A stretch of 64,000 nucleotides of DNA. It comes from Solwaraspora sp. WMMA2065 (GTDB lineage: Bacteria > Actinomycetota > Actinomycetes > Mycobacteriales > Micromonosporaceae). The DNA lies in NCBI RefSeq assembly GCF_030345075.1, contig NZ_CP128361.1:4154001-4218000 (forward strand), in the 5' to 3' direction. The translations under genes and the position numbers were made by a program. Under the pieces are notes generated by a model. That model saw only the letters and a list, made by a program, of their open reading frames with translations. It was not told the DNA's origin and did no database searches. The stretch's first letter is position 1, and every line of letters begins with the position of its first letter. Below, in pieces: positions 40,064 to 53,294 of the stretch.

Positions 40064-41932
40064 TCACCCGATCGGGCCACCCGCCATTCCAGCCATCCGG
40101 GCGATCATCGTCGCGTCGGCGGCTCCCGCGTACACCCGGACCTCGTCGACGACGCCGGTGAGGTACTGGCCGAAGCTCCCGTTGTGCAACGCCCGGCCCA
40201 CCTGCAGGCCGCCGTTCGCCCGCCAGCCGGCCGTGTACGCGGCAGTGCCGGTCGCAGAAAGGTAGCCGTCGACGTAGAGTCTCACCTCCTGGCGCGCCGA
40301 GTCGTAGACCACCGCCAGGTGCTGGCCGAAGTAATCCCATTCCGGGTACGTCAAGTTGTCCTGTATGACCGTCGACGCCGGGTCGGTGGTGTCCTGGTGT
40401 GGCAGGACCAGCTCCCAGCGATTCGACGCGGCGTTGCAGCGGATGACGAAGCCACTGGCGGTGACGCCGGCCTGGGACAGCACCGCCTGGTCGGTGTCTC
40501 CGCAGGTCGGGCCGGCCAGCCGCACTCGTACGCCGACGGTGAAGCTGCGGTCGGTAACCGCGATCGGTCCGTCGGTCTGCGCCCAGTCGTCGACGCCGTC
40601 GAGCACCAGATGCCCATCAGCTACCAGCGGCGGCTCAGCGAACGGGTCCTCGTCCATATCCGGGGCGTACAGGTGCGAATCGCCGTGCAACCGCAGGTCC
40701 GCACCGCCGCCGTACTCCGGGCTGTTGCCGTTGGTGGCCTCGTCCAGCGGCCAGTAGCCGAACGAGGTCGGCGGCCGAGCCGACAGGTCTCGCACCTCGT
40801 GCGACACCAGTACGCGGTCGAAGACCGCGACGTCGGCGAGGTCTCCGGCCCAGCCCTCGGTGTAGCCGCTGCCGCTGACCGCGCGACCGATCTGCACCGC
40901 ACCCTGCGACGCCCACACCGACTGACGCAGCGCCACCGGCTGTTCGTCGCCGTGGACGTACAGGGTCATCGTGGTCAGCTCCGGGTCGTACGCGGCCGCC
41001 AGGTGGGTCCACTCGCCGAGCATGACCGGCGCGGTGCTGGTCACCGACCACACAGCCGGTGAAGGCGAGTCCGATGCGGCGATCTCGAACGCCCAACGGC
41101 CACTGTCCGCGTCGAAGCCGAGGGTGAAGCCGGGCGCGTCGGTGCCGTCCTGGCTGACCGCGACCCGGTCGACCGAGTCGTCGGTCAACCGCACCCAGGC
41201 GCTGGCACCGAACCCGGTCGACGTGTCGATCAGGCCGGAACTGCTGGTAGCCAGGTAGCTGGTAGCCGCGTCGCCGGTGAGTCGGGCCGCCCGGCCGAGT
41301 TGGCACTGCGCGCCCAGGTCTGCGCACTCCGACCCGGGAACGCCGAACGTGACGCCGCTGCCGGCGGCCGCCGGGTGGTTGCCGCGCGCGTCCGCCGCCG
41401 AAGTGGCACCGGCCGCGTCGTCGAGCGGCCACTCGCCAGCAGCGAGCCGAGTCGGTACGGAGAAAAGGCAGTATGCGATCGGCGAACGTCCTCCGTCGGC
41501 GTCGACCGCCTGCACGGTGACTGAGGTCGTCCGGTCCTGCACCGGCATCCAGCGCAGCGACACCGGCGCGCCGATGCTCGCGGGCACAAGGACGTTGTCC
41601 GGCAAGGGGTTGGTGTTGAAGCCGTACAGGTACTTGACGACCTGAGGGGACGGCGAGTGGAAGGTGAAGGTGCCGTACACACCGATCGACCCACGGTGCT
41701 GGTTGTCCTCGGCGCAGGCGCTGGTGTGTTCGTCGGCGTCGAGCGGCAGGTACTCCGGCGAGTCGATGTCCGGCGCGATCGGCGCGACGACGTTGCTCGA
41801 CGTCGCCGTGTCGCGCTCTGCCGGTCCGGCCACCGCCGGTGCGGCGGCGACGGCGTGTACCCCGAGCACCATCGCGATCAGCACTGCCACCCGCCGCAGC
41901 CCGCGCACGGATCCACGATTATCCACTGTCAT
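40064..41932 (-). CDS. Secreted protein with two LamG domains, paralogue of the toxin partner's C-terminus
   Basis: 622 residues. Signal peptide 1-35 (VAVLIAMVLGVHAVAAAPAVAG), an Ig-like segment (50-165, SPEYLPLDADEHTSAC), and two LamG jelly rolls (about 170-385, TGFGASAWVRLTDDSVDRVA; 390-610, FTVGVRVRLAGPTCGDTDQA), which usually bind glycans. From residue 58 on it is closely similar to the last 570 residues of the DNRLRE/LamG protein, and the DNA is also very similar. It lies downstream of the immunity gene on the same strand. It may be an adhesin or a remnant of a second toxin locus. Confidence 0.8.
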   Translation of the reverse strand: MTVDNRGSVRGLRRVAVLIAMVLGVHAVAAAPAVAGPAERDTATSSNVVAPIAPDIDSPEYLPLDADEHTSACAEDNQHRGSIGVYGTFTFHSPSPQVVKYLYGFNTNPLPDNVLVPASIGAPVSLRWMPVQDRTTSVTVQAVDADGGRSPIAYCLFSVPTRLAAGEWPLDDAAGATSAADARGNHPAAAGSGVTFGVPGSECADLGAQCQLGRAARLTGDAATSYLATSSSGLIDTSTGFGASAWVRLTDDSVDRVAVSQDGTDAPGFTLGFDADSGRWAFEIAASDSPSPAVWSVTSTAPVMLGEWTHLAAAYDPELTTMTLYVHGDEQPVALRQSVWASQGAVQIGRAVSGSGYTEGWAGDLADVAVFDRVLVSHEVRDLSARPPTSFGYWPLDEATNGNSPEYGGGADLRLHGDSHLYAPDMDEDPFAEPPLVADGHLVLDGVDDWAQTDGPIAVTDRSFTVGVRVRLAGPTCGDTDQAVLSQAGVTASGFVIRCNAASNRWELVLPHQDTTDPASTVIQDNLTYPEWDYFGQHLAVVYDSARQEVRLYVDGYLSATGTAAYTAGWRANGGLQVGRALHNGSFGQYLTGVVDEVRVYAGAADATMIARMAGMAGGPIG

Positions 41933-42196
41933 CTACTACTCCCCCTTGCCAGGCACTGAATACGCGCGATAACCATGCTTTCATGCAACAATGAGCATTG
42001 TCGATGAATGGCACCAGAGCTAATCGACTTGCATCTTCCGCACACAGCGGCGCGAGAGCCATCGCACTACCCAAACTTCCACGGACAGCCCAAACACCCA
42101 CAAGCGAATAGAATCATCCCGCGACGAGGTAGCAACGACAGTCTGCGATCTTACCAAGGCGACCAGACAGACCACCCCAAGGTCCACATCCTGACC
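41933..42196. other. Low-GC gap downstream of the immunity gene
   Basis: About 264 bp of roughly 50% GC DNA separate the immunity ORF from the LamG gene. Only unconvincing short frames occur here. Its composition matches the toxin/immunity cassette, so it probably arrived with it and may be the remains of another immunity gene or the LamG promoter. Confidence 0.45.
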
Positions 42197-42619
42197 TCAA
42201 CCAGCAACAATGAGCTCACTTTCTCCACCTGGAACTTCCAATCCAGATGATTCACTCGAATGATGCATTCGGACAACAAATGACAGACAGGCAACGAAGC
42301 CTTCTCCAAGGTCGGACGACAAGAGCACCGGAATTACTCTACCGGCACGATCATCGATCCTCAAAAAATCTAGGATACTTTGTCGATCATTATTATTGGC
42401 ACAACTCAGGGTCAACGACGAGTACACTGACTTTAGTTTCACCCCCACTACACCATAGAAGAGTGCGCGCGTCGTTACACCACTACCTTCTCCTCTAATC
42501 TCCAACTCAGAATGACTGACGCTATATCGCCACGGTCGAAACTTACCATCCAACACAACAGGAAGTTCCGCATAGCGAGCCAATTCGCTAGCCAAATGGA
42601 TTCGCCACCTTTTCGCCAT
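42197..42619 (-). CDS. Putative immunity protein for the Rhs/Hint toxin
   Basis: Up to 140 residues, soluble, no signal peptide, GC only about 45-48%. It overlaps the toxin gene's 3' end by 32 bp in another frame, the usual place for an immunity gene. Core: PWRYSVSHSELEIRGEGSG, then ALFYGVVGVKLKSVYSSLTL and ILDFLRIDDRAGRVIPVLLS. No named immunity family is recognised. Start may be ATG 42619 or TTG 42595 (AAAAGG upstream). It would act in the cytosol by binding the toxin domain. The function is inferred from position and composition. Confidence 0.65.
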   Translation of the reverse strand: MAKRWRIHLASELARYAELPVVLDGKFRPWRYSVSHSELEIRGEGSGVTTRALFYGVVGVKLKSVYSSLTLSCANNNDRQSILDFLRIDDRAGRVIPVLLSSDLGEGFVACLSFVVRMHHSSESSGLEVPGGESELIVAG

Positions 42620-45600
42620 TCCGATAGAATGTTGTGCGCGACACCGCAGACTTGCTATTTTTGACGAGATTCAGCTCCCAGGCCGTGGAGTGCCCATCGA
42701 AAATTGGGTCGACTTCCTTTCCGCGCACAGCAAAGGCCACTGGATCGTCGATCCCATCAAGGTTGAAGTGAATCTTGGTTTTTCTGTCCTTCACATATCC
42801 CTTCAGCTCCGATACCCAGTTCTCGCCGCGAGACGGCCAGTCATGGTATGACTTCGCGCCTACCGAGTCGGCAAACTCATGCAAGGCCATCGGATTACCA
42901 TCAACTTCACTCATCCCCAGAGCAATGCTGCAATTATGAACAAGGATCGCCGTTTTGCCGGCCACCACATGATACGTGTGGATGCCGGCGACGGTGAGGT
43001 TGTGGACCGTACGGGTTTCGGACCACTGACGTACGGCGGTGACCTGGACCCATGTACCGGCGGAGGTCTGCAGCCACTGCCCAGCCGCCAACTCGGCTGC
43101 GTCGCGCCACTCACCCACCTCCGGCACCCAGAACGGATGACCGTCCGTCGCGACCAACACCCCCAAGGCCCCACTCCGGTTACCGTCGACATCGACGGTT
43201 ATCTCGACCAGGTCCTTTCGCCCCTGCCCGACAATGGTGGCCACAACCGCCTTCGCTGCCGACTCGCCAGACTCCGGATCGGACGCCACCACCAGATCAC
43301 CGACGACGATATCCTCGATCGGCTTCGACGAACCATCCGCGAGCAGCACCAACGTGCCCGGCACGAAGCTATTCGATGTAAGACAATTTCCCAGGTCGTC
43401 GAGATTTTTTCGGCTTCTGAGGAAGGTGCCGACGGCGTCCTTCAACTTGCCGCCCAGGTTCCACAACCGCTCCCCAAGCGCCTTCAGCCTCATCGGCTTC
43501 AAGCCGTAACGGGCCAACAACTTCCCCGCAGCGCCACCGACCGCCGTCAACACCACGTTCAACGCCGTCATCGCACAAGCGCCCATGTCGCCGTTGATGA
43601 AACAGTCGACCGCGTCGGTGATCCCCAACTCGTCCATCAAAATCTGGCCGAGCTCCTTCGCCACCGCCACCACGACCTGCTTTGCGTCCTCCACATCCCG
43701 ACGCGCCTGCGCCACCTCCGGCGGCACCGTCGACGCCGGCGGCGGCCGGGGCACCACCGTCCAACGGTTCGACGACATCGAGTACACCAACTGCTCACCG
43801 CGCTTCTTCCAGTACGCGTCCTCCTCCGCACCACCACCCGTCGCCAACGGGCGCAACCCATCCGGATCCGTAAACGACACCGGCGAATTGTTCGCATACG
43901 CGTACCCGTGCATTTGCTGCGGATCACTCACATCGATGATCGGGTCCACCGAGATGAACCGACCAGTCTGCGGGTCATACTCCCGCGCACCCAGATGCGT
44001 CAACCCCGTCGACGCGTCCTGCGTACCACCGACGAAGCCCTTCTCGCCCAACCACTGACCAACCCCCGGCTGAATGCCGCGCGGCGTGCCGAACGGCGCC
44101 ATCCGCCGATGCGTGATCTGCCCCGTGGCCCCGTCCACCGCGGCCTGCCCGGAACCGTGATGATCCGCAGCCTGCACCTGCACACCCGCGACCGTTCGCA
44201 CCACCGTCAACTGACCGCCGACCGGGTAGTAGCGCGTCCCATCGACCACCGAGTTGGAGCGGTTCAGCTTCAACTCCATGTTCGGCAGATACACCGTGAT
44301 CGAATCCGGATCCTTCCGGACCAACCGACCGCCATCGGCGTCGTAGACGAAACTGGTGGTCTTCCCGTCCTCGGTGACCGACTCCAGCCGGCCCTCGGCG
44401 TTCCAGACCAGGTCCTGCTCCTCGCCGACCCGGACCCGCTTCGTCGTGTTGCCCGCCGCGTCGTACTCGTACGAGTACAACCGGTCACCGGCCGACGTCT
44501 CCTCGACCACCTGCGACAACGTGTGCGGCTGTGCCTGACCCGGCTGTGGGAACGAATACGTCCGCTCGACCTCGTCGGCCCCACCCGCAGCGTGGATCGT
44601 CTCGCTCAGCCGGTTACCAGCCAGGTCGTAGCTGTAGGAGTGGTGGTACGGCGCCGGCCCGCCCACCCCGCTGGTGCCCGGCCCACCCGCACACGGATCA
44701 CTCGCCGTGGTCGCCGTGCTCCAGGCCCGCGTCATCCGCCGCAGATAGTCGTACTGGAAACACTGGATGTCCCGCACTCCGGAGCCCGGCCGGTCAGCGA
44801 TCGACAGCACATTACCGGCGTCGTCGTACTCGTAGTGCTGGTCGATGTCGCTGGTCGGCATTGCCGGGTTGTCACCCTCAATCGGCTGCCGGCGCAGCAT
44901 CGATCGGATCAGCCGGTTGGTGCCCTCCTCGTAGGTGTAGGTGCCGAAGACCTTACGGCTACCGGCGCTGACCTGCGCCCTCTGAAGCTCACCGGTCGAC
45001 GTGTAGGTAGCGTCGCTGAGATATGACTCGTCACCAGTAATCCTTGTGACCCGCTGCAGGCTGTCGTAGGTGTAACTGACACCTTCGACCGACAGACCGC
45101 CCCCCTCTGGGAATGTCGTACCCTTAACAGTGCCGTCGTCGTTGTAAACGGTGAGGAATTTGTAGAATCCGCCGAGCTCGGCATCCGTGTCGCCTGCGGG
45201 AATGCTGTATCGCACTTCGGTCGCTCGATAGTGGGCATCTCGAGCAACGTAGACGGTGTGATACTTGTGGCCGCCGTCTACGATGCGGGTGGCGAAGTAG
45301 AGCTGTCCCTTGGCGACGGTGTCGTATCCCCACTCGGCAAGCTTCGTACCTGTCTCGACCGAGCCCTGATAGGTGCCGGTCTTTCGGCCGAGCACGTCGT
45401 AGGTGTGGCTGACAGTGACGCCCCGACCGTCCGTGGTGGAGGTCAACTGGTCGTGGTCGTTGTAGGTGAAGGTGCTGGTTCCGCTGTCCGGATCGACCGC
45501 TTCGGTTTTGCGACCCCGTTGGTCGTACTCGTAGGTCCACACGTTGCCGGCCGGGTCGGTGACGCTGGCCTGCTGACCGGCAGGGGTATAGGTGTACGTG

Positions 45601-48600
45601 GTGCTGTCGAAGCTGCCACTCGGCCCGGCACCGTGGTACTGCCGTAGCTCGACGACCTGACCACGGGCATCGGTGATGGTGGCCGTCGGGGTACCGCCCG
45701 TCGGCGGGTCGACATGCACCCGGTCCCCGCCGTACGTGGTGACCGTTCGCCACTTCTCGTCCGAGGCGACGAGGGTGATGGTGTCGGTGACCCGGTCCAC
45801 GCCGTCGTACTGATACACCGTCTGCAGGTCGACATCGCCGTTGACCGTCTTCAGCAGAGTGCCTGACGGGGCACCGGAGGCGTGGAACTTGTCGTTGAAC
45901 TTCGCCACCTTGCCGGTGGCGGTGTAGAAGGTTTCCGAGACGAGCCGTCCACCATCCGGTCCGGGCACCTGAATCTGCCGAGGGCGGAGGAAGCCGTCGT
46001 AAATCGTAAACTCGGCGTTTGATACGCCGTTGACGATTTGCTCCTTCTTCACTGACACAGGTGCGTTGTCCTGGTTCTGGTACGTATACCGGACACTCGG
46101 CTCGTTGGGGTTACTCGCCTTGGTCTTGTCCGGTAGCCAGACCCGCACGGTACGGCCCAGCTTGTCGTACTCGACGTCAGTGCGCTTGCCGTTCCAGTCG
46201 ATCTGGGTGACCGGCTGTCCCCATGCCGGGTGGTAGTCGGTGGTCGCGATGAACCGGGTGTCGACGGTGCCGACCCGGATCTGCGGCCCAGTCTCCATCT
46301 TGCGGGTGGTCAGACCGTTCGTCTCGGTGTAGGCGATGTTGGTGACCGCGCCGGAGCCGTCCTGCGCCGTCAGCGGCCGGCCGTACATGTCGAAGGTCCC
46401 TTCACCGACGGTGACATAGCTCGGGGTGGAACCGCTGTGGCTGGCGAGCTTCTCGATCCGGGTGGCGTTGCCCTTGGTCGGCGTCGCACCGTATGCCTGG
46501 CCGTCGTACGAGGTCCGGTTGTCGGTGAGCAGTTGGGTGGCCAGGTCGGGGTTGGTGACCGAGCAGGCGACCGAGACGGTCTCCTCCCGGGCGACCAGGG
46601 TCCGTAGCCGCAGGCTGTGGTTGTCGGCGTAGGTGGTCCGGGTGCACCGGTCGTCGGCGGCGGTGCTGACGTCGCCGAGATCCTCGACCTGCGTGACCCG
46701 CCCGACCGGGTCGGTGTAGCCGCTGGTCGCCGGGTCGTAGGTGGTGATCGACTTCGTTTCCCGCCAGTCGCCGCCAGCCAGCGCGGTGAAGCCCCGACTG
46801 ACCCGCGGCTTGACGAAGAACGCCCGATCGGTGCCCCACGGCCGGCTGTAGCTGGCGGTCTCGTAATGCCACGGGCTGGTCACCGATTTGCTGCTGACCT
46901 GGGAGCCGTTGTAGACGGCGGTCTCGATCTCGAAGCCGGCGAGTTCGTCGTGGTCGGTGTGGGAAGTGCCGACCGAGTCGGTACGGGTGACCGTGCGGGT
47001 GCCGCCGGCCGGGTTCTTGTCGCCGTGCATGCCGCGCAGGTAGGTGTGCTCGGTGCGGGTGGTGAAGGTCTCGCCGTCGCCGCGCCGGACGCGCACCTTC
47101 TCGTAGCCGCGCCACTGGTTCCAGGTCAGCAACTCGATGTCACCGATGCCGTCCGGGTCGGCGTGCCGCCAGGCCGCGTCGCCCAGATACTCGTAGCTGG
47201 TCACCATGTCCGGGGCCAAGGCGGTGCCGGGCTCGACGTTCGTGCGGTCCGTTTCGGTGACCGACTCGACGACGTACTTGTGGAACCAGTCGGTGATCGG
47301 ATTCACCTCGCCGCTCGGCGACCACTTCACCGGGTAGCAGCGGCGGGTGCTGTTGCCGGGGGTCGGCAGCGAGTTGGCCGAGCAGTCCGGCGACTTGTAG
47401 GTGACATCGACCTGGCCGCCGGAGTCGGTGTAGACGGTGGTCAGTCGAGGCCGGATCAGTGGGGCGACGTTGTCGCCAGGGATGTCGATCCGGTTGGGCA
47501 GCTGCAGCGGGCCCAACTCGACCGAGGGCACGGTCAGCGGGTCGCCGTCACCGTAGCGGCCCTGGTGGTCGATCTTGTGCAGCCACAGCGACCGGCTGCC
47601 GTCGGCGTTGTTGGTGAACAGGTGGGTCAGGTTCCACGAGTCGACCGGCGTCCATCCGCTGGTGGTGCGGATCTCGGTGGTGATCTGGCCGACCCGCTTG
47701 CGGGTCCAGAAGCTGGGTGACGACTGGCTGGCTGTGCAGTGGGTTCCGGCAGCGCAGTTGCGGTCCCACGGCACGTCCGGCCAGGAGTTGGCCGTGCTGT
47801 TGTTCAGCTGACCCGGCGCGCAGGTGATACTGCCGCTCGGGATGCACCGTTCGGCGTCGGTGAACACCACCCGGGCCGGTGCCGGGGTGGAGTAGACCGC
47901 GTTGTGCCGCTGGCCGTAGTCGATCCGCTTGAGCCAACCACCCCGGTGGTACGCGGTGCCGTTGACGGTGGTCTGCGCCCGCAGCGCGTAGTGGTTCGTC
48001 TCCCGCTCGTAGAAGTACGAGGTGACGTTGCCGTGCCGGTCCTTGACGTAGTCGAGGTTCCACCGCCAGGCCTGGTGGCACCAGGCGTTCGCCAGTGTCG
48101 AGTTGTAGCAGGGTTCGCCGCTGTCGTCGCCGAAGACCGGCACCGTCCACACCGAGTTGGTTTCGGCGTTTCCGGACGCCCATCCGGGCAGCCGGTTCAG
48201 CCCGAAGTAGTGCTCGGTGCCGTCGATCGTGGTGACCTTCCAGAACTCGCGGTCGTTGTCACCATTGACGGCGCCGTCGACCGTCCCGCTGTACCGCTCG
48301 ATCTTCGACCCGTCGTCGTTGGCGAACCGCCAGGTGCTGCCGGTCCGCACCAGCGTGCTGGACCGCCCGTTGAGCATCAGTACGGCGTTGTCGTGCGCCC
48401 AGCACAGGTCGCCCATGCCGTCGCGGCCGTCGTCGAGGCAGGTGTTGTAGCGGCGTTCAACGTACCCGGGGTCGTAGCTGAAGCCCTCGCCCAGCCAGGA
48501 GCCCTGGTTGTTGGTGGTCGCAGTCCGCCCGTCGGTGGCCTGCGAGTTGTAGCCGAGCACCACCGACGGGGTCAGCCCGCCCGGCACCGGCGGCACCCGC

Positions 48601-49379
48601 ATCGGGTACGACCAGTTGAACGCACCCGATGACGGTGACACGTTCCACTTCGACGACGGCGCGAACTCGGTCGCGCCGAAGCTGCCCTGCGCCGAAGCCT
48701 CCGAAGCGACCATTGCGAACAGCGCCGAGCCGGCACCGACGTCGATCGTGGCGGTAAGGGTGTCGGTTCCCGCGTTGTTGACCGCCGGTACCGGCTCCGG
48801 CGCACACGCCGACGCGTCCGGCGTGGTCAACGCACACTCAGGCAACCGGACCAGCCGCAGTCGGGCACCGAAATCGCCGCCGTACGCATCGGCGATCCCG
48901 GCGTAGCTCAACGCCACCCGGACGGTGCCGGCACCGGTCTCGCCGGCAGCCCGCCCGATCCGGGTGACCGGTCCGTCGACCTTCGCTTTCGTCGACACCG
49001 CGCGGTCGAGGGTCTGCACCCGCACTCTGCTCGGCGGCGCGGTGCCGGCCGCACGGCCCGCCGCACTGGTCGGACTGGCCACCGGCGTCGCCGGCACCTC
49101 CACCGTCCCGGCCGCCGGCCAGGCAACCTCCGGTGCGGTACGCAGCGCCGCCTGCACCACCGGGTTCGGCTCACGGGGCGGCACCGGAGCCGCCGGGCGG
49201 TCCGGAGCCGGTTCGTCATGTTGCTGGACCGGGGGTGCCTCGGAGGACGGCTCGGCCCGGGCCGGGCTCTCCACCCCCTGCAGCAGGCCGGCGGCGACGA
49301 CGACCGCCGTCGCCCAGGTGACAGCGGCGGTCAGCCGTCGACGGCGGTCCGGGGTCGTAGCCAGAATCCGGGAACTCAT
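42588..49379 (-). CDS. Secreted Rhs-repeat polymorphic toxin with Hint protease and C-terminal toxin domain
   Basis: 2263 residues. Signal peptide 1-42 (LTAAVTWATAVVVAAGLLQG...ARA). Residues about 170-1840 hold a beta-rich shell with a SpvB-like N-part (FNWSYPMRVPPVPGGLTPSV) and many Rhs/YD repeats (such as YEYDQRGRKTEAVDPDSGTS). The Rhs core ends in GAREYDPQTGRFISVDPI and FTDPDGLRP. A pretoxin segment (GITDAVDCFINGDMGACAMT) follows, then a Hint domain (1998-2149: SNSFVPGTLVLLADGSSKPI, ATDGHPFWVP, HTYHVVAGKTAILVHN) ending in HN before Cys2150, where self-cleavage is expected. The last 114 residues are the toxin. TGGAG precedes ATG 49379; ATG/GTG 49430 is less likely. Confidence 0.92.
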   Translation of the reverse strand: MSSRILATTPDRRRRLTAAVTWATAVVVAAGLLQGVESPARAEPSSEAPPVQQHDEPAPDRPAAPVPPREPNPVVQAALRTAPEVAWPAAGTVEVPATPVASPTSAAGRAAGTAPPSRVRVQTLDRAVSTKAKVDGPVTRIGRAAGETGAGTVRVALSYAGIADAYGGDFGARLRLVRLPECALTTPDASACAPEPVPAVNNAGTDTLTATIDVGAGSALFAMVASEASAQGSFGATEFAPSSKWNVSPSSGAFNWSYPMRVPPVPGGLTPSVVLGYNSQATDGRTATTNNQGSWLGEGFSYDPGYVERRYNTCLDDGRDGMGDLCWAHDNAVLMLNGRSSTLVRTGSTWRFANDDGSKIERYSGTVDGAVNGDNDREFWKVTTIDGTEHYFGLNRLPGWASGNAETNSVWTVPVFGDDSGEPCYNSTLANAWCHQAWRWNLDYVKDRHGNVTSYFYERETNHYALRAQTTVNGTAYHRGGWLKRIDYGQRHNAVYSTPAPARVVFTDAERCIPSGSITCAPGQLNNSTANSWPDVPWDRNCAAGTHCTASQSSPSFWTRKRVGQITTEIRTTSGWTPVDSWNLTHLFTNNADGSRSLWLHKIDHQGRYGDGDPLTVPSVELGPLQLPNRIDIPGDNVAPLIRPRLTTVYTDSGGQVDVTYKSPDCSANSLPTPGNSTRRCYPVKWSPSGEVNPITDWFHKYVVESVTETDRTNVEPGTALAPDMVTSYEYLGDAAWRHADPDGIGDIELLTWNQWRGYEKVRVRRGDGETFTTRTEHTYLRGMHGDKNPAGGTRTVTRTDSVGTSHTDHDELAGFEIETAVYNGSQVSSKSVTSPWHYETASYSRPWGTDRAFFVKPRVSRGFTALAGGDWRETKSITTYDPATSGYTDPVGRVTQVEDLGDVSTAADDRCTRTTYADNHSLRLRTLVAREETVSVACSVTNPDLATQLLTDNRTSYDGQAYGATPTKGNATRIEKLASHSGSTPSYVTVGEGTFDMYGRPLTAQDGSGAVTNIAYTETNGLTTRKMETGPQIRVGTVDTRFIATTDYHPAWGQPVTQIDWNGKRTDVEYDKLGRTVRVWLPDKTKASNPNEPSVRYTYQNQDNAPVSVKKEQIVNGVSNAEFTIYDGFLRPRQIQVPGPDGGRLVSETFYTATGKVAKFNDKFHASGAPSGTLLKTVNGDVDLQTVYQYDGVDRVTDTITLVASDEKWRTVTTYGGDRVHVDPPTGGTPTATITDARGQVVELRQYHGAGPSGSFDSTTYTYTPAGQQASVTDPAGNVWTYEYDQRGRKTEAVDPDSGTSTFTYNDHDQLTSTTDGRGVTVSHTYDVLGRKTGTYQGSVETGTKLAEWGYDTVAKGQLYFATRIVDGGHKYHTVYVARDAHYRATEVRYSIPAGDTDAELGGFYKFLTVYNDDGTVKGTTFPEGGGLSVEGVSYTYDSLQRVTRITGDESYLSDATYTSTGELQRAQVSAGSRKVFGTYTYEEGTNRLIRSMLRRQPIEGDNPAMPTSDIDQHYEYDDAGNVLSIADRPGSGVRDIQCFQYDYLRRMTRAWSTATTASDPCAGGPGTSGVGGPAPYHHSYSYDLAGNRLSETIHAAGGADEVERTYSFPQPGQAQPHTLSQVVEETSAGDRLYSYEYDAAGNTTKRVRVGEEQDLVWNAEGRLESVTEDGKTTSFVYDADGGRLVRKDPDSITVYLPNMELKLNRSNSVVDGTRYYPVGGQLTVVRTVAGVQVQAADHHGSGQAAVDGATGQITHRRMAPFGTPRGIQPGVGQWLGEKGFVGGTQDASTGLTHLGAREYDPQTGRFISVDPIIDVSDPQQMHGYAYANNSPVSFTDPDGLRPLATGGGAEEDAYWKKRGEQLVYSMSSNRWTVVPRPPPASTVPPEVAQARRDVEDAKQVVVAVAKELGQILMDELGITDAVDCFINGDMGACAMTALNVVLTAVGGAAGKLLARYGLKPMRLKALGERLWNLGGKLKDAVGTFLRSRKNLDDLGNCLTSNSFVPGTLVLLADGSSKPIEDIVVGDLVVASDPESGESAAKAVVATIVGQGRKDLVEITVDVDGNRSGALGVLVATDGHPFWVPEVGEWRDAAELAAGQWLQTSAGTWVQVTAVRQWSETRTVHNLTVAGIHTYHVVAGKTAILVHNCSIALGMSEVDGNPMALHEFADSVGAKSYHDWPSRGENWVSELKGYVKDRKTKIHFNLDGIDDPVAFAVRGKEVDPIFDGHSTAWELNLVKNSKSAVSRTTFYRNGEKVANPFG
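42591..42932 (-). other. C-terminal toxin domain (114 residues) of the Rhs/Hint protein
   Basis: This segment follows the Hint HN motif and begins CSIALGMSEVDG. GC is about 52%, far below the rest of the gene. Readable elements: ALHEFADSVGAKSYHDW, KTKIHFNLDGIDD, STAWELNL and TTFYRNGEKVANPFG. The pattern resembles domains annotated as polymorphic toxin type 27, by memory only. Its activity is unknown; conserved D, E, H and W residues are candidates for a catalytic site. Confidence 0.6.
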
Positions 49380-49426
49380 CACCACTCCAGGGGGGAAGGA
49401 GGCGAAGCGGACGGGAGATCGGCGAT

Positions 49427-52400
49427 TCACAGGTACGGATTCGGCGCAGGAAGGACAAGCCGCTGAATCGACTCGTCGTCAGCGACCCCGGTATAGGCGC
49501 GTACCTCGTCGACGACACCGCCGAGGTACTGGCCGAAGGCGCCGTTGTGCAACGCCCGGCCCACCTGCAGCGGTCCGCCCGCCCGCCAGCCGGCGGTGTA
49601 GGTGGCGGCGGCGGTCACAGCGACCTCGCCGTTGATGTAGAGCCGCACCTCGTTGCGGAATGCGTCGTAGACCACCGCCAAGTGCTGGCCGTGCTGGTCT
49701 GCGCTCGGCAGCAGATCGACGTCGAAGACCACCGTGGCCTGTGGGTCGTTGGTATCGCTGTGCGGTAGCACCAACTCCCAGCGGTTGCCGCTGCCACAGC
49801 GGATCACGAATCCGCTCGCCGCAGTGCCAGCCTGGGAGAGCACCGCCTGGTCCCGGTCGCCACAGGTCGGGCTGGGCAACCGGACCCGGGCGGCGACGGT
49901 GAAGCTGCCGTCGGTCACCGCCACCGGCGCGTCGGTGCGGGCCCGGCCGTCGACCCCGTCGAGCACCAGATGTCCGCCGCCGACCAGCGGCAACTCGACG
50001 AACGGATCCTCGTCGACGTCCGGTGCGTACAGGTGGGCACCGCCTTCCAACAGCAGCTCCTGGCCGTTTGAGTCGTAGGCGGGGCTGCGGTCGCCGGAGA
50101 CGTCGTCCAGCGGCCAGTAGCCGAGGCGGATAGGCCGCAGTGTGGACAGCTCGCTGACCTCCCGGTGCACCAGCACCCGGTCGTAGACGGCGATGTCGGC
50201 CAGCTCACCGGCCCAGCCGGCGGTGTGGCCGCTGCGGGCGTACGCCCGACCGATCTGCACCGCGCCCCGGGACTTCCAGGCCGACCGGCGCGGCACGGTC
50301 GGCTGGACGTCCCCGTTGACGTACAGCGTCATCGTCTTGAGCTCCGGGTCGTACGCGGCCGCCAGATGAGTCCATTCGTCGCGAATCGCCGGGGCGGTGC
50401 TGGTCACCGACCAGCCGCCCAGCGACAGCACGTCCGTCGACGGGATCGCGAACTCCCACTTGCCGGTGGCGGCGTCGAAGCCGAGGGTGAAGCCGGGCTC
50501 GCCGCTGCCGTCCTGGCTGATCGCGACCCGGTCGGTGGTGTCGTCGGTGAGCCGCACCCAGGCGCTGGCTCCGAACCCGGTCGACGTGTCGACCAGCGCC
50601 GAGCTGGTGGTGGCCAGGTAGCTCTCGGCGGCGTCGCCGGTGAACTGGATTGCCCGGTCGAACTGGCACTCGGAGCCGGAGTCACCGCAGCCCGGCCCGG
50701 ACACTCCGAACGTCACCCCGGCTCCGGCGACCGCCGGATGGTTGCCCCGGGCGTCCTCGGCCGACGCCGCACCGGCTGCCTCGCCGAGCCCCCATTCGCC
50801 TGCCGCCAGCCGGGTCGGCACGGAGAACACGCAGGTGGCGATCGCCGACCGCAGGCCGGACTGGTCGACTGCCTGCACCGTGACGATGTTCGGGGCGTCG
50901 TCGCCTGGCATCCAGCGCAGTGACACCGGGCCGCCGGGGCTGGTCGGCACCAGTTCGTTGTCCGGCAACGGGTTGGTGTTGAACCCGTACAGGTAGCGGA
51001 CGGTGTCGGTGGAGACCGAGTCGAAAATGAAGGTGCCGTAGATGCCGACCCCGCCCCGGTGCTGGTCGTCCTCGACGCAGGCGCTGGTGTGCTCACCGGC
51101 GTCGAGTGGCAGATACTCCGGAGAGTCGATGTCCGGCGCGGCCGGCGCGGTGGAGTCGTAGACGAACTGGCAGGCGGTCTGAGTGCTGCCTTCCCAGCTC
51201 CACGGCCCCCAGACCTCCGAGTCGCCGGCCCGGACTTCCCAGGTGATCGGCGTGTTCTGCGGGATACTCGATGGCAGGGTGTGCTGGAAGCGGGAACCGC
51301 TGGCCTTCCACCCGGTGGTGACGTAGTTGTTGACCCGGGTGCCGGCCGAGTCGTACCAGTAGTAGAGGATCTGGCCCCGGACATCCTCGGTGTGCGACGA
51401 GCTGTGGTCCGGGTCGCGTAGCACCATGAACAGCGTCGGCGGGGTGTCCACGTACGGTCGGTTGGTGCCGGTGACGCACTGGCCACCGGGCGACATGGTC
51501 AACTCGGACTGCTTCGGTTGGCTCGGTGTCCGGTTGTAGTGCACAGCCAGGAGCGCGTTTCCGCAGAACCGCTTGAACGCCGTCTGGTCGTTCTCGTCCG
51601 TGGCGGCGAGCCCGAACGTGGTCGTCGACCAGCCCTTGGTCACAGCTTCCCGCACCGCCGCGGTGGCGGTGAAGCCGACGTTCTGGTTCGTCGAGGTGCA
51701 GGAGTTCTTCTTCGCGGTCGGTGCCTTCGTCTGCAGCAGGACGCCGAGCGCCGGTTTGTTGTTCCAGTTCGTGCCGGAGCTGATGCCGGACGATGCCCGG
51801 TACAACGAGACGTTCCTCGGGGTCGAGTTGTACGTGTGGGTCATCGTCACCCGGAACTCCGCGCTCAGGATGGTCCGCCCCGCGTACGGCGTGGGCAACG
51901 CGTAGTAGATCCGCTTTTTCCCGACCTTGTTGCACTGCCCGGAGTCGACCGGGCAGTCGCCGACGCCTTCGGTGCCGGAGAACTTGTGGTACGACATGTG
52001 CGGGTAGCCGCTGGCAACCATCGCCCAGTCGCTCCTGCGGGTGTCCTGCCAGACCGGGTCGATGTAGACCGGCCAGCGGGTGTCGGGATCGGTGAGCATC
52101 GCCTGGTCGGGCAGCAGGGTGAGGGTGTCGCCGTCGATCCGCCAGCCGATCGGTGCCTGGCTGGCACCCGGCGGGGCGGACCCGGTGGCGTCGACACCGG
52201 TCACGTCACCTGAGTCGGGAGCGGTCCGGCCCGGCGTCGCGGCGTCGGTGCCGGCGATGTCGTCACCCGAGTCCCACATCGCCGGTGCGGCGGCCTCCAG
52301 CACCGGCGCGCCGGACACCGTGTCCACGGCCGCCAGCCCACCTTCGAGGCCGTCCTGCACGGTCAGCCCGGCAGTGGCCAGGCCGAACTCCAGCTCGGCC

Positions 52401-53185
52401 AGCTCCGGCTGCTGTGCCGCCTCCGGGGTCTTGACCACGAGTACGTGTGAGAAGCCGGTGACCTCGACGTCGACCACCAGGTCCACGTCGGGCAGCACCT
52501 CGGCGTAGACGGCCTGGTCACCGTCGACCGTCGGCTCCGGCAGGGCACCGGGCCAGTCGAGGGTCATGCTGCGGCCGGCGCGCTCCACCCGTACCAGGGG
52601 GGTGTCGCCACCGCCGGAGAGCCGCAGCCCGAGGGTGGCGGCCCGGGGGCCGATGCTGCCGTCGGCGGCGGTGACCAGGGTCGCGTCGGTCGGCACCCAT
52701 TGGCCGTCGCGGACCACCCGGAACGGCTGGGCGTGCTGCACCGAAGTCAGCGTGCCGTCCGGGTTGGCGAACGTCTGGGTGCTCTCACCCTGCAGGGCAC
52801 CGATCTCGACCCGCTCACCGATGTCGACGGCGTGGGCGAACGCCTCGGCTTCGGTCTGCCGGACCGGCTCCGCGCCGTCCACGGCCGGTGCCGGTTCGTC
52901 CGACTCCGCCGCCGGTGCGGGGGCGGCCTGCTCCGTCCGGTCCGGGGCCGCCGTCGCCGGGCTGTCGTCCGCCGCGAACGCCGCCAGGACCTCCTCGACA
53001 GTGGCGCCGTCGAAGGCCGGGTCGTCGACGACCGCCGCCGCAGGGAGGTCGGTGGAACGTACCGGGTCGTTTTTCAGCCGACGCAGAACCTGCTGCCAGG
53101 CCGCCTCGTCGGAGAAGTCAGTCCGCACCACGCACGGCTCGAACTCGAGGTCATCGGTCCGGACGATCAGCGGACGGGTAGGCAT
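49427..53185 (-). CDS. DNRLRE/LamG surface protein, partner of the Rhs toxin, with DUF6924-like N-terminus
   Basis: 1252 residues. Residues 1-60 (MPTRPLIVRTDDLEFEPCVV, RTDFSDEAAWQQVLRRL) resemble the small cytosolic DUF6924 domain and replace the signal peptide expected here. After an Ala/Pro linker come the usual partner-protein parts: GESTQTFANPDGTLTSVQHA, WPVYIDPVWQDTRRSDWAMV, a DNRLRE-type domain (about 400-560, RNVSLYRASSGISSGTNWNN), an Ig-like segment and two LamG domains (about 790-1240). Its stop is 47 bp before the toxin ATG, so they form one operon. AAGGAG precedes ATG 53185. How it would be exported is unclear. Confidence 0.8.
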   Translation of the reverse strand: MPTRPLIVRTDDLEFEPCVVRTDFSDEAAWQQVLRRLKNDPVRSTDLPAAAVVDDPAFDGATVEEVLAAFAADDSPATAAPDRTEQAAPAPAAESDEPAPAVDGAEPVRQTEAEAFAHAVDIGERVEIGALQGESTQTFANPDGTLTSVQHAQPFRVVRDGQWVPTDATLVTAADGSIGPRAATLGLRLSGGGDTPLVRVERAGRSMTLDWPGALPEPTVDGDQAVYAEVLPDVDLVVDVEVTGFSHVLVVKTPEAAQQPELAELEFGLATAGLTVQDGLEGGLAAVDTVSGAPVLEAAAPAMWDSGDDIAGTDAATPGRTAPDSGDVTGVDATGSAPPGASQAPIGWRIDGDTLTLLPDQAMLTDPDTRWPVYIDPVWQDTRRSDWAMVASGYPHMSYHKFSGTEGVGDCPVDSGQCNKVGKKRIYYALPTPYAGRTILSAEFRVTMTHTYNSTPRNVSLYRASSGISSGTNWNNKPALGVLLQTKAPTAKKNSCTSTNQNVGFTATAAVREAVTKGWSTTTFGLAATDENDQTAFKRFCGNALLAVHYNRTPSQPKQSELTMSPGGQCVTGTNRPYVDTPPTLFMVLRDPDHSSSHTEDVRGQILYYWYDSAGTRVNNYVTTGWKASGSRFQHTLPSSIPQNTPITWEVRAGDSEVWGPWSWEGSTQTACQFVYDSTAPAAPDIDSPEYLPLDAGEHTSACVEDDQHRGGVGIYGTFIFDSVSTDTVRYLYGFNTNPLPDNELVPTSPGGPVSLRWMPGDDAPNIVTVQAVDQSGLRSAIATCVFSVPTRLAAGEWGLGEAAGAASAEDARGNHPAVAGAGVTFGVSGPGCGDSGSECQFDRAIQFTGDAAESYLATTSSALVDTSTGFGASAWVRLTDDTTDRVAISQDGSGEPGFTLGFDAATGKWEFAIPSTDVLSLGGWSVTSTAPAIRDEWTHLAAAYDPELKTMTLYVNGDVQPTVPRRSAWKSRGAVQIGRAYARSGHTAGWAGELADIAVYDRVLVHREVSELSTLRPIRLGYWPLDDVSGDRSPAYDSNGQELLLEGGAHLYAPDVDEDPFVELPLVGGGHLVLDGVDGRARTDAPVAVTDGSFTVAARVRLPSPTCGDRDQAVLSQAGTAASGFVIRCGSGNRWELVLPHSDTNDPQATVVFDVDLLPSADQHGQHLAVVYDAFRNEVRLYINGEVAVTAAATYTAGWRAGGPLQVGRALHNGAFGQYLGGVVDEVRAYTGVADDESIQRLVLPAPNPYL

Positions 53186-53294
53186 CTCGGTTGGCTCCTT
53201 CGGATCGGCGGCGACACCGGGCCCCACGCCGCAGAGACGTGAGCCGGATCGGCGGCATGGTAGCGGAATCGGTCCGATCGGTCGGGCATGCGCG

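Follow-up and report, generated by a model that had tools for sequence, protein, structure and literature searches.

A Rhs/Hint polymorphic toxin gene of Solwaraspora with an apparently exchanged 3' cassette, a divergent Ntox27 toxin tip and its candidate immunity gene

Polymorphic toxins of the Rhs/Hint type carry exchangeable C-terminal tips, as set out by Zhang et al. 2012 (PMC3482391). The gene described here is on the minus strand of a 64,000-nucleotide (nt) stretch of Solwaraspora sp. WMMA2065 (contig NZ_CP128361.1, positions 4,154,001 to 4,218,000), which is referred to as the window. It is very probably a classical Rhs/Hint polymorphic toxin gene whose 3' end was replaced by a foreign toxin-immunity cassette. 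As in the known systems, there is a constant shell, a variable tip and a neighboring partner gene, and nothing in the layout is unlike them; the window gene has a Sec-type signal and a Hint domain at the junction. The initial annotation had assigned this layout to a known class of polymorphic toxins, and the RHS/YD repeats, the Rhs-associated core, the Hint domain before the tip and the unrelated tips in relatives all agree with that assignment.

Three other described systems bear on the locus. The toxin tip is homologous by profile to Ntox27 (PF15531), and its HINT, ALF and RHS carriers match the 2012 table (PMC3482391), as do a shared D and E; however, the Pfam model misses the window tip, and the window subfamily lacks the RxW motif. 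The Ntox27 row seen in that catalogue names no immunity partner (PMC3482391). The partner model weakly resembles the fold of PIM7(Bc), the immunity protein of PT7(Bc) (PDB 8owu), but at 8-9% identity and without a sequence match, and PT7 is absent among the toxin structure matches listed. A literature search on 8OWU, PIM7 and PT7 found no paper for 8OWU and, among the papers listed, no use of PIM7. The Serratia Rhs effectors that degrade nicotinamide adenine dinucleotide (NAD), as described in PMC10539506, likewise combine an exchangeable Rhs tip with a small immunity protein, and NAD is a proposed target here. Those effectors belong to the TNT-like kind and have a palm sheet that is antiparallel; neither TNT-like nor ADP-ribosyltransferase folds were among the Foldseek matches listed for the window toxin, from which no exclusion is drawn. 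The mechanism of tip exchange is ordinary, toxin variation by swapping being well known. What is new is the Ntox27 relationship of the toxin, the candidate partner family and a single candidate catalytic residue.

The C-terminal 421 amino acids (aa) of shell and Hint taken together were used as a query against seven genomes of the genus, including that of the window. An orthologous shell was found in four of the six other genomes (83-88% aa identity), one of which, G003, had a second, displaced copy (81%); the best shell matches in G004 and G006 were partial and at most 61% identical. Five same-genus copies reach the end of the Hint domain, at 81-88% identity to the query, and none of them carries the window toxin. 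All five keep the Hint domain up to its final residue and then carry other tips, with a G+C content (GC) of 50-57%. The G003 tip is an EndoU domain (PF14436, E 3.5e-7), and the tip of the second G003 copy matches a ribonuclease weakly (E 0.0036, under the cut-off) and is followed by a Barstar gene (E 5.9e-19). The G001 tip matches DUF4258 weakly (E 0.016, under the cut-off) and is followed by DUF2283 (E 1.2e-11), and the tips in G005 and G002 have no clear family. The six tips were mutually unrelated in an all-against-all BLASTP comparison (best off-diagonal E 0.47), and tblastn searches with the window toxin and partner against the four relative loci gave nothing better than E 0.033.

At the DNA level (blastn), identity of 87-93% runs through shell and Hint and ends at 42933, 42930, 42958 and 42931 in all four syntenic loci. 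Beyond the variable block it resumes at 41952, 40322, 41003 and 40134 in the four relatives, respectively; the cassette boundary at 41952 is set by one locus alone (L058), the other relatives resuming further on. The variable block is bounded on both sides by conserved DNA. The cassette swap onto a resident delivery gene that the initial annotation had proposed is supported because identity ends at the end of a Hint domain that relatives conserve with the shell, the relatives' tips are unrelated, and identity resumes beyond them. Toxin and shell shared at equal identity, which would contradict a swap, were found in none of the five copies. The locus is a clean natural tip exchange, with six shell copies in five genomes, one cut point and six unrelated tips, a count that includes one interrupted copy and one displaced fragment.

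The interrupted copy is that of G005, where the shell gene has an open frame of 800 aa and the match is split by some 1.1 kb of unmatched sequence (L058:8097-9236); a transposase-like open reading frame (ORF), named by eye, follows the tip. Several transposase-like and two reverse-transcriptase-like ORFs, also named by eye, follow the tip in G001 (L060:1700-9200). Pieces of shell and Hint with the second tip and the Barstar gene follow the first tip in G003 (L059:10151-14240), and this arrangement is a further likeness to the known systems. Rhs orphan modules are a known part of exchangeable-tip Rhs systems, and the pieces in G003 are the footprint of displaced tips.

A sharp GC break had been reported at the Hint/toxin junction, and it was confirmed by windowed GC, by GC at third codon positions (GC3) and by a change-point fit. 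GC was 67.0% in the shell, 63.8% in Hint, 52.9% in the toxin, 47.9% in the overlapping ORF and 70.6% in the whole window, so that the step is real but the earlier figure of 68-70% for shell and Hint was somewhat high. GC3 fell from 0.867 in the shell to 0.765 in Hint, 0.623 in the toxin and 0.403 in the immunity ORF. None of the 2051 in-frame toxin-length windows within shell and Hint was as low as the toxin, the lowest 342-nt window dipping to 57.9%. The low GC extends beyond the immunity ORF to about 41953, and the block 41953-42932 (980 nt) has a GC of 51.1%, a value reached by none of 3053 equal-size windows elsewhere in the 64 kb (minimum 62.4%). The break had been placed at 42932; a one-step fit over 42588-45500 put it at 42957, 25 nt away, and DNA identity to the relatives stops at 42930-42958.

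A homology search identified ten relatives of the toxin (41-75% identity) in Streptomyces, Lentzea, Yinghuangia, Nocardiopsis, Amycolatopsis and Catellatospora, and a further relative (50% identity) elsewhere in G005. The closest of them (71-75%) are on other carrier proteins, in Streptomyces and Lentzea, and toxin kinship tracks neither shell nor genus. In a carrier scan mostly limited to the last 900 aa or less, eight of ten carriers had Hint, three had ALF repeats (L002, L008 and L009, of which L002 was without Hint) and four matched RHS or YD-shell models at E 0.001 or better; a fifth, L017, did so more weakly. There is also a second, distant copy in the same genome (L015; G000:C1, about 2.49 Mb), whose Hint protein ends in an Ntox27 tip and whose partner belongs to the same family as the window's; this copy accounts for an Ntox27 match of E 1.7e-9. 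Cross-protection between this copy and the window pair is possible.

The window tip did not match Ntox27 in Pfam at E ≤ 10. Scans of 12 proteins, the tip subfamily and L015, yielded Ntox27 in one (by inference L015), two chance-level Pfam matches, and nothing in NCBIfam or PADLOC. The Ntox27 model matched 3 of 249 genomes of the order (own genome included), 1 of 396 genomes of the phylum (own genome) and none of 14 control genomes; either Ntox27 is rare, or its model reaches few members. Further clan members came from a family-model search (L017, L018), a toxin-alignment search (L020-L025, L027) and a partner search (L083, L076, L077, L081). Their Ntox27 bit scores were 164 (L076), 33 (L020) and 18-24 (L024, L021, L083, L022), with none for L081. 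A profile of seven Ntox27-side tips, one of which (L077) was not Pfam-scanned, recovered every one of the nine subfamily tips, with E from 1.3e-11 to 6.5e-6 (1.3e-6 for the window tip). It hit none of 914 decoy frames, three decoy frames with clan tips having been removed beforehand. Judged by these profiles, the window toxin is soundly placed as a divergent relative of Ntox27, linked to it by intermediates though Pfam misses it. The earlier suggestion that the toxin-immunity pair may not be described holds for the partner family, which has no good Pfam or NCBIfam match, but not for the toxin. The RxW motif listed for Ntox27 is in none of the nine subfamily tips, the window tip reading KSAVSR; it has LDG and an invariant E87, the presumed equivalents of the listed D and E. 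A plasmid search with the window tip gave no match, and the one plasmid match of the paralogue, in a haloarchaeal solute-binding protein, looks like chance and was rejected.

The ORF overlapping the 3' end of the toxin (by 32 nt on the same strand, from ATG 42619) is most likely the immunity gene and would protect the producer. With this ORF as a tblastn query, 10 of 11 subfamily loci showed a homologue following the toxin; in the eleventh, L007, a partner was seen by position and by profile. Ten other toxin-side clan loci had a partner in six cases (L015, L017, L018, L020, L021, L024), with no partner seen in L022 and a fragment in L027. In L023 and L025 another ORF, roughly 280 aa long, stands in place of the usual partner, possibly a second immunity family. 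Overall, of the 22 clan toxins identified by toxin-side searches, 18 are followed by a partner-family gene.

A partner profile run over 394 genomes of the class gave 18 match rows representing 17 loci in 15 genomes, the two rows of G642 being pieces of one gene that were counted as one locus. Nine of the 17 loci are directly behind a clan toxin, and five of those nine had themselves contributed rows to the profile. Four of the 12 independent partner loci (L083, L076, L077, L081) are behind a clan toxin, and L073 is in tandem with L083, giving two partner-family genes behind one clan toxin. Half-family profiles recovered the other half (E 3e-19 to 0.004), and toxin and partner distances were correlated over 19 pairs (r 0.60; 0 of 10000 permutations), without correction for shared descent. 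Thirteen partner proteins had only scattered weak matches in Pfam and NCBIfam (best E 0.008), and three further ones had none in Pfam. The partner model had a predicted local distance difference test score (pLDDT) of 88.2. The partner family is probably the main immunity family of the Ntox27 clan. No immunity partner of Ntox27 is on record in the row seen of the 2012 table, in the literature searches or in the Pfam and NCBIfam scans. Ntox27, known by number only, thus gains a candidate for its partner and a single obvious candidate for its catalytic residue, which makes its target and inhibition directly testable.

Two alternatives to an imported toxin-immunity pair were weighed. The low-GC stretch might be a drifting or degenerate gene end, which would fit the stepwise fall in GC through shell, Hint and tip, as well as the other dips within shell and Hint. 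However, the toxin frame is intact and has homologues at 41-75% identity, and the unrelated tips at the same point in relatives, with DNA identity resuming beyond them, contradict a degenerate end and make it exceedingly improbable. It is also unlikely, though less so, that the overlapping ORF travels with the toxin as a chaperone or adaptor. The facts that count against an immunity gene are that the partner is missing behind 4 of the 22 clan toxins and that at 7 of the 12 independent partner loci the roughly 300 nt upstream hold no clan toxin. Against a chaperone or adaptor, immunity genes of polymorphic toxins typically have the position and overlap of this ORF, their occurrence as lone copies or in tandem (as in L083 and L073) is usual, and there is the weak likeness of fold to PIM7(Bc).

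The chemistry of the toxin is less clear than the origin of its gene. The model of the tip (pLDDT 89.2) is alpha/beta. An alignment of 22 tips, leaving out the broken or partial L006, L010, L011 and L027, showed a conserved Leu-Gly at the end of strand 1, a less strict LDG after strand 3, and a T-x-W-E that opens a later helix. The Leu, Gly and Glu are invariant in the 22 tips, whereas not one His, Lys or Arg position is shared by 18 or more. The invariant Glu is in model helix 81-90, at the start of the helix, which comes after strand 3 and a short helix. Such positions make up the active site in Rossmann-like enzymes; TIR NADases and deoxyribosyltransferase-type N-glycosidases rely on a lone Glu, and in TIR and nucleoside deoxyribosyltransferase enzymes the catalytic Glu sits near the beginning of the helix behind strand 3. 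An N-glycosidase with NAD or a nucleotide as substrate is therefore tentatively favored, at less than even odds, because a lone invariant Glu occurs in an alpha/beta model faintly like the TIR/deoxyribosyltransferase folds. Several results lend it no support: Foldseek of the toxin gave a best E of 0.21 (PDB) and 0.27 (viral models), hhalign between the clan and five nucleoside deoxyribosyltransferases gave a probability of 0.1% (no relation), and PF05014 was unmatched by 12 clan members at E ≤ 10. Sequence searches of the PDB with the toxin and partner families gave a best E of 0.56.

The toxin of the same cassette could instead be a metal-independent ribonuclease, which is only slightly less likely. 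The 2012 catalogue appears to group Ntox27 (D, E, RxW) in this way, since in the passages seen its entry falls between the heading 'Predicted metal-independent RNase toxins' and the following one (PMC3482391). The EndoU tip and the tip with a weak, below-cut-off ribonuclease match and Barstar in genus relatives also point toward a ribonuclease, as do PIN nuclease domains among the weak Foldseek matches to the toxin model. The remaining probability belongs to some other chemistry. Extended to the whole clan, the N-glycosidase reading would make Ntox27 toxins minimal single-domain NAD/nucleotide N-glycosidases (TIR/deoxyribosyltransferase-like, with a single catalytic Glu) and the beta-rich partner a PIM7-like main immunity family, active also as lone genes; as a whole this is speculative.

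The locus consists of a conserved shell and Hint domain, a foreign tip right after the final Asn of Hint, and, overlapping the end of the tip, a gene that belongs to a conserved family (Table 1). Pfam matches to RHS_repeat and PT-HINT were found in the 2280-aa ORF, and YD repeat and Rhs_assc_core were matched as well. The Hint domain, whose sequence resembles PDB 8w20 and 2lwy, ends in LVHN (Asn codon 42933-42935) and adjoins the tip directly, with a Cys next. By analogy with characterized families, the Rhs protein would be exported by Sec, the YD shell would enclose the tip, and Hint would cut after the Asn to free a 114-residue toxin beginning at Cys. The freed toxin may then act inside a competitor, with the partner binding the toxin and shielding the producer. 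The earlier description of the protein as secreted is consistent with the signal peptide.

Table 1. Features of the locus (window positions)
Feature	Positions	Strand	Basis and remarks
Rhs/Hint/toxin gene	42588-49430	-	ORF, 2280 aa from GTG 49430; likely start ATG 49379
Putative Sec-type signal peptide (RRRR, hydrophobic core, ARA)	49254-49379	-	Translation from ATG 49379, by eye without a predictor
Rhs-associated core (TIGR03696), shell end	43854-44054	-	Residues 1793-1859
Pretoxin Hint domain	42933-43349	-	PF07591, E 5.9e-17, residues 2028-2166
Toxin tip, divergent Ntox27 clan	42591-42932	-	114 codons after Hint, then stop; invariant Glu 42675-42677
Immunity gene candidate	42197-42619	-	Homologues behind related toxins; conserved part 42200-42571; start uncertain
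Exchanged cassette (toxin tip, immunity gene, low-GC tail)	41953-42932	-	DNA identity to relatives; GC 51.1%
Conserved upstream gene LamG1 (LamG/DNRLRE)	49427-53227	-	Domain matches, DNA identity to relatives
Conserved flank past cassette, LamG paralogue LamG2	40064-41932	-	75.5% DNA identity to 49477-51149

Two LamG genes flank the Rhs gene, and the cassette site thus sits between paralogues. The N-terminal part of the LamG1 ORF is a DUF6924 domain (E 1.1e-11, residues 31-89), an unusual fusion.
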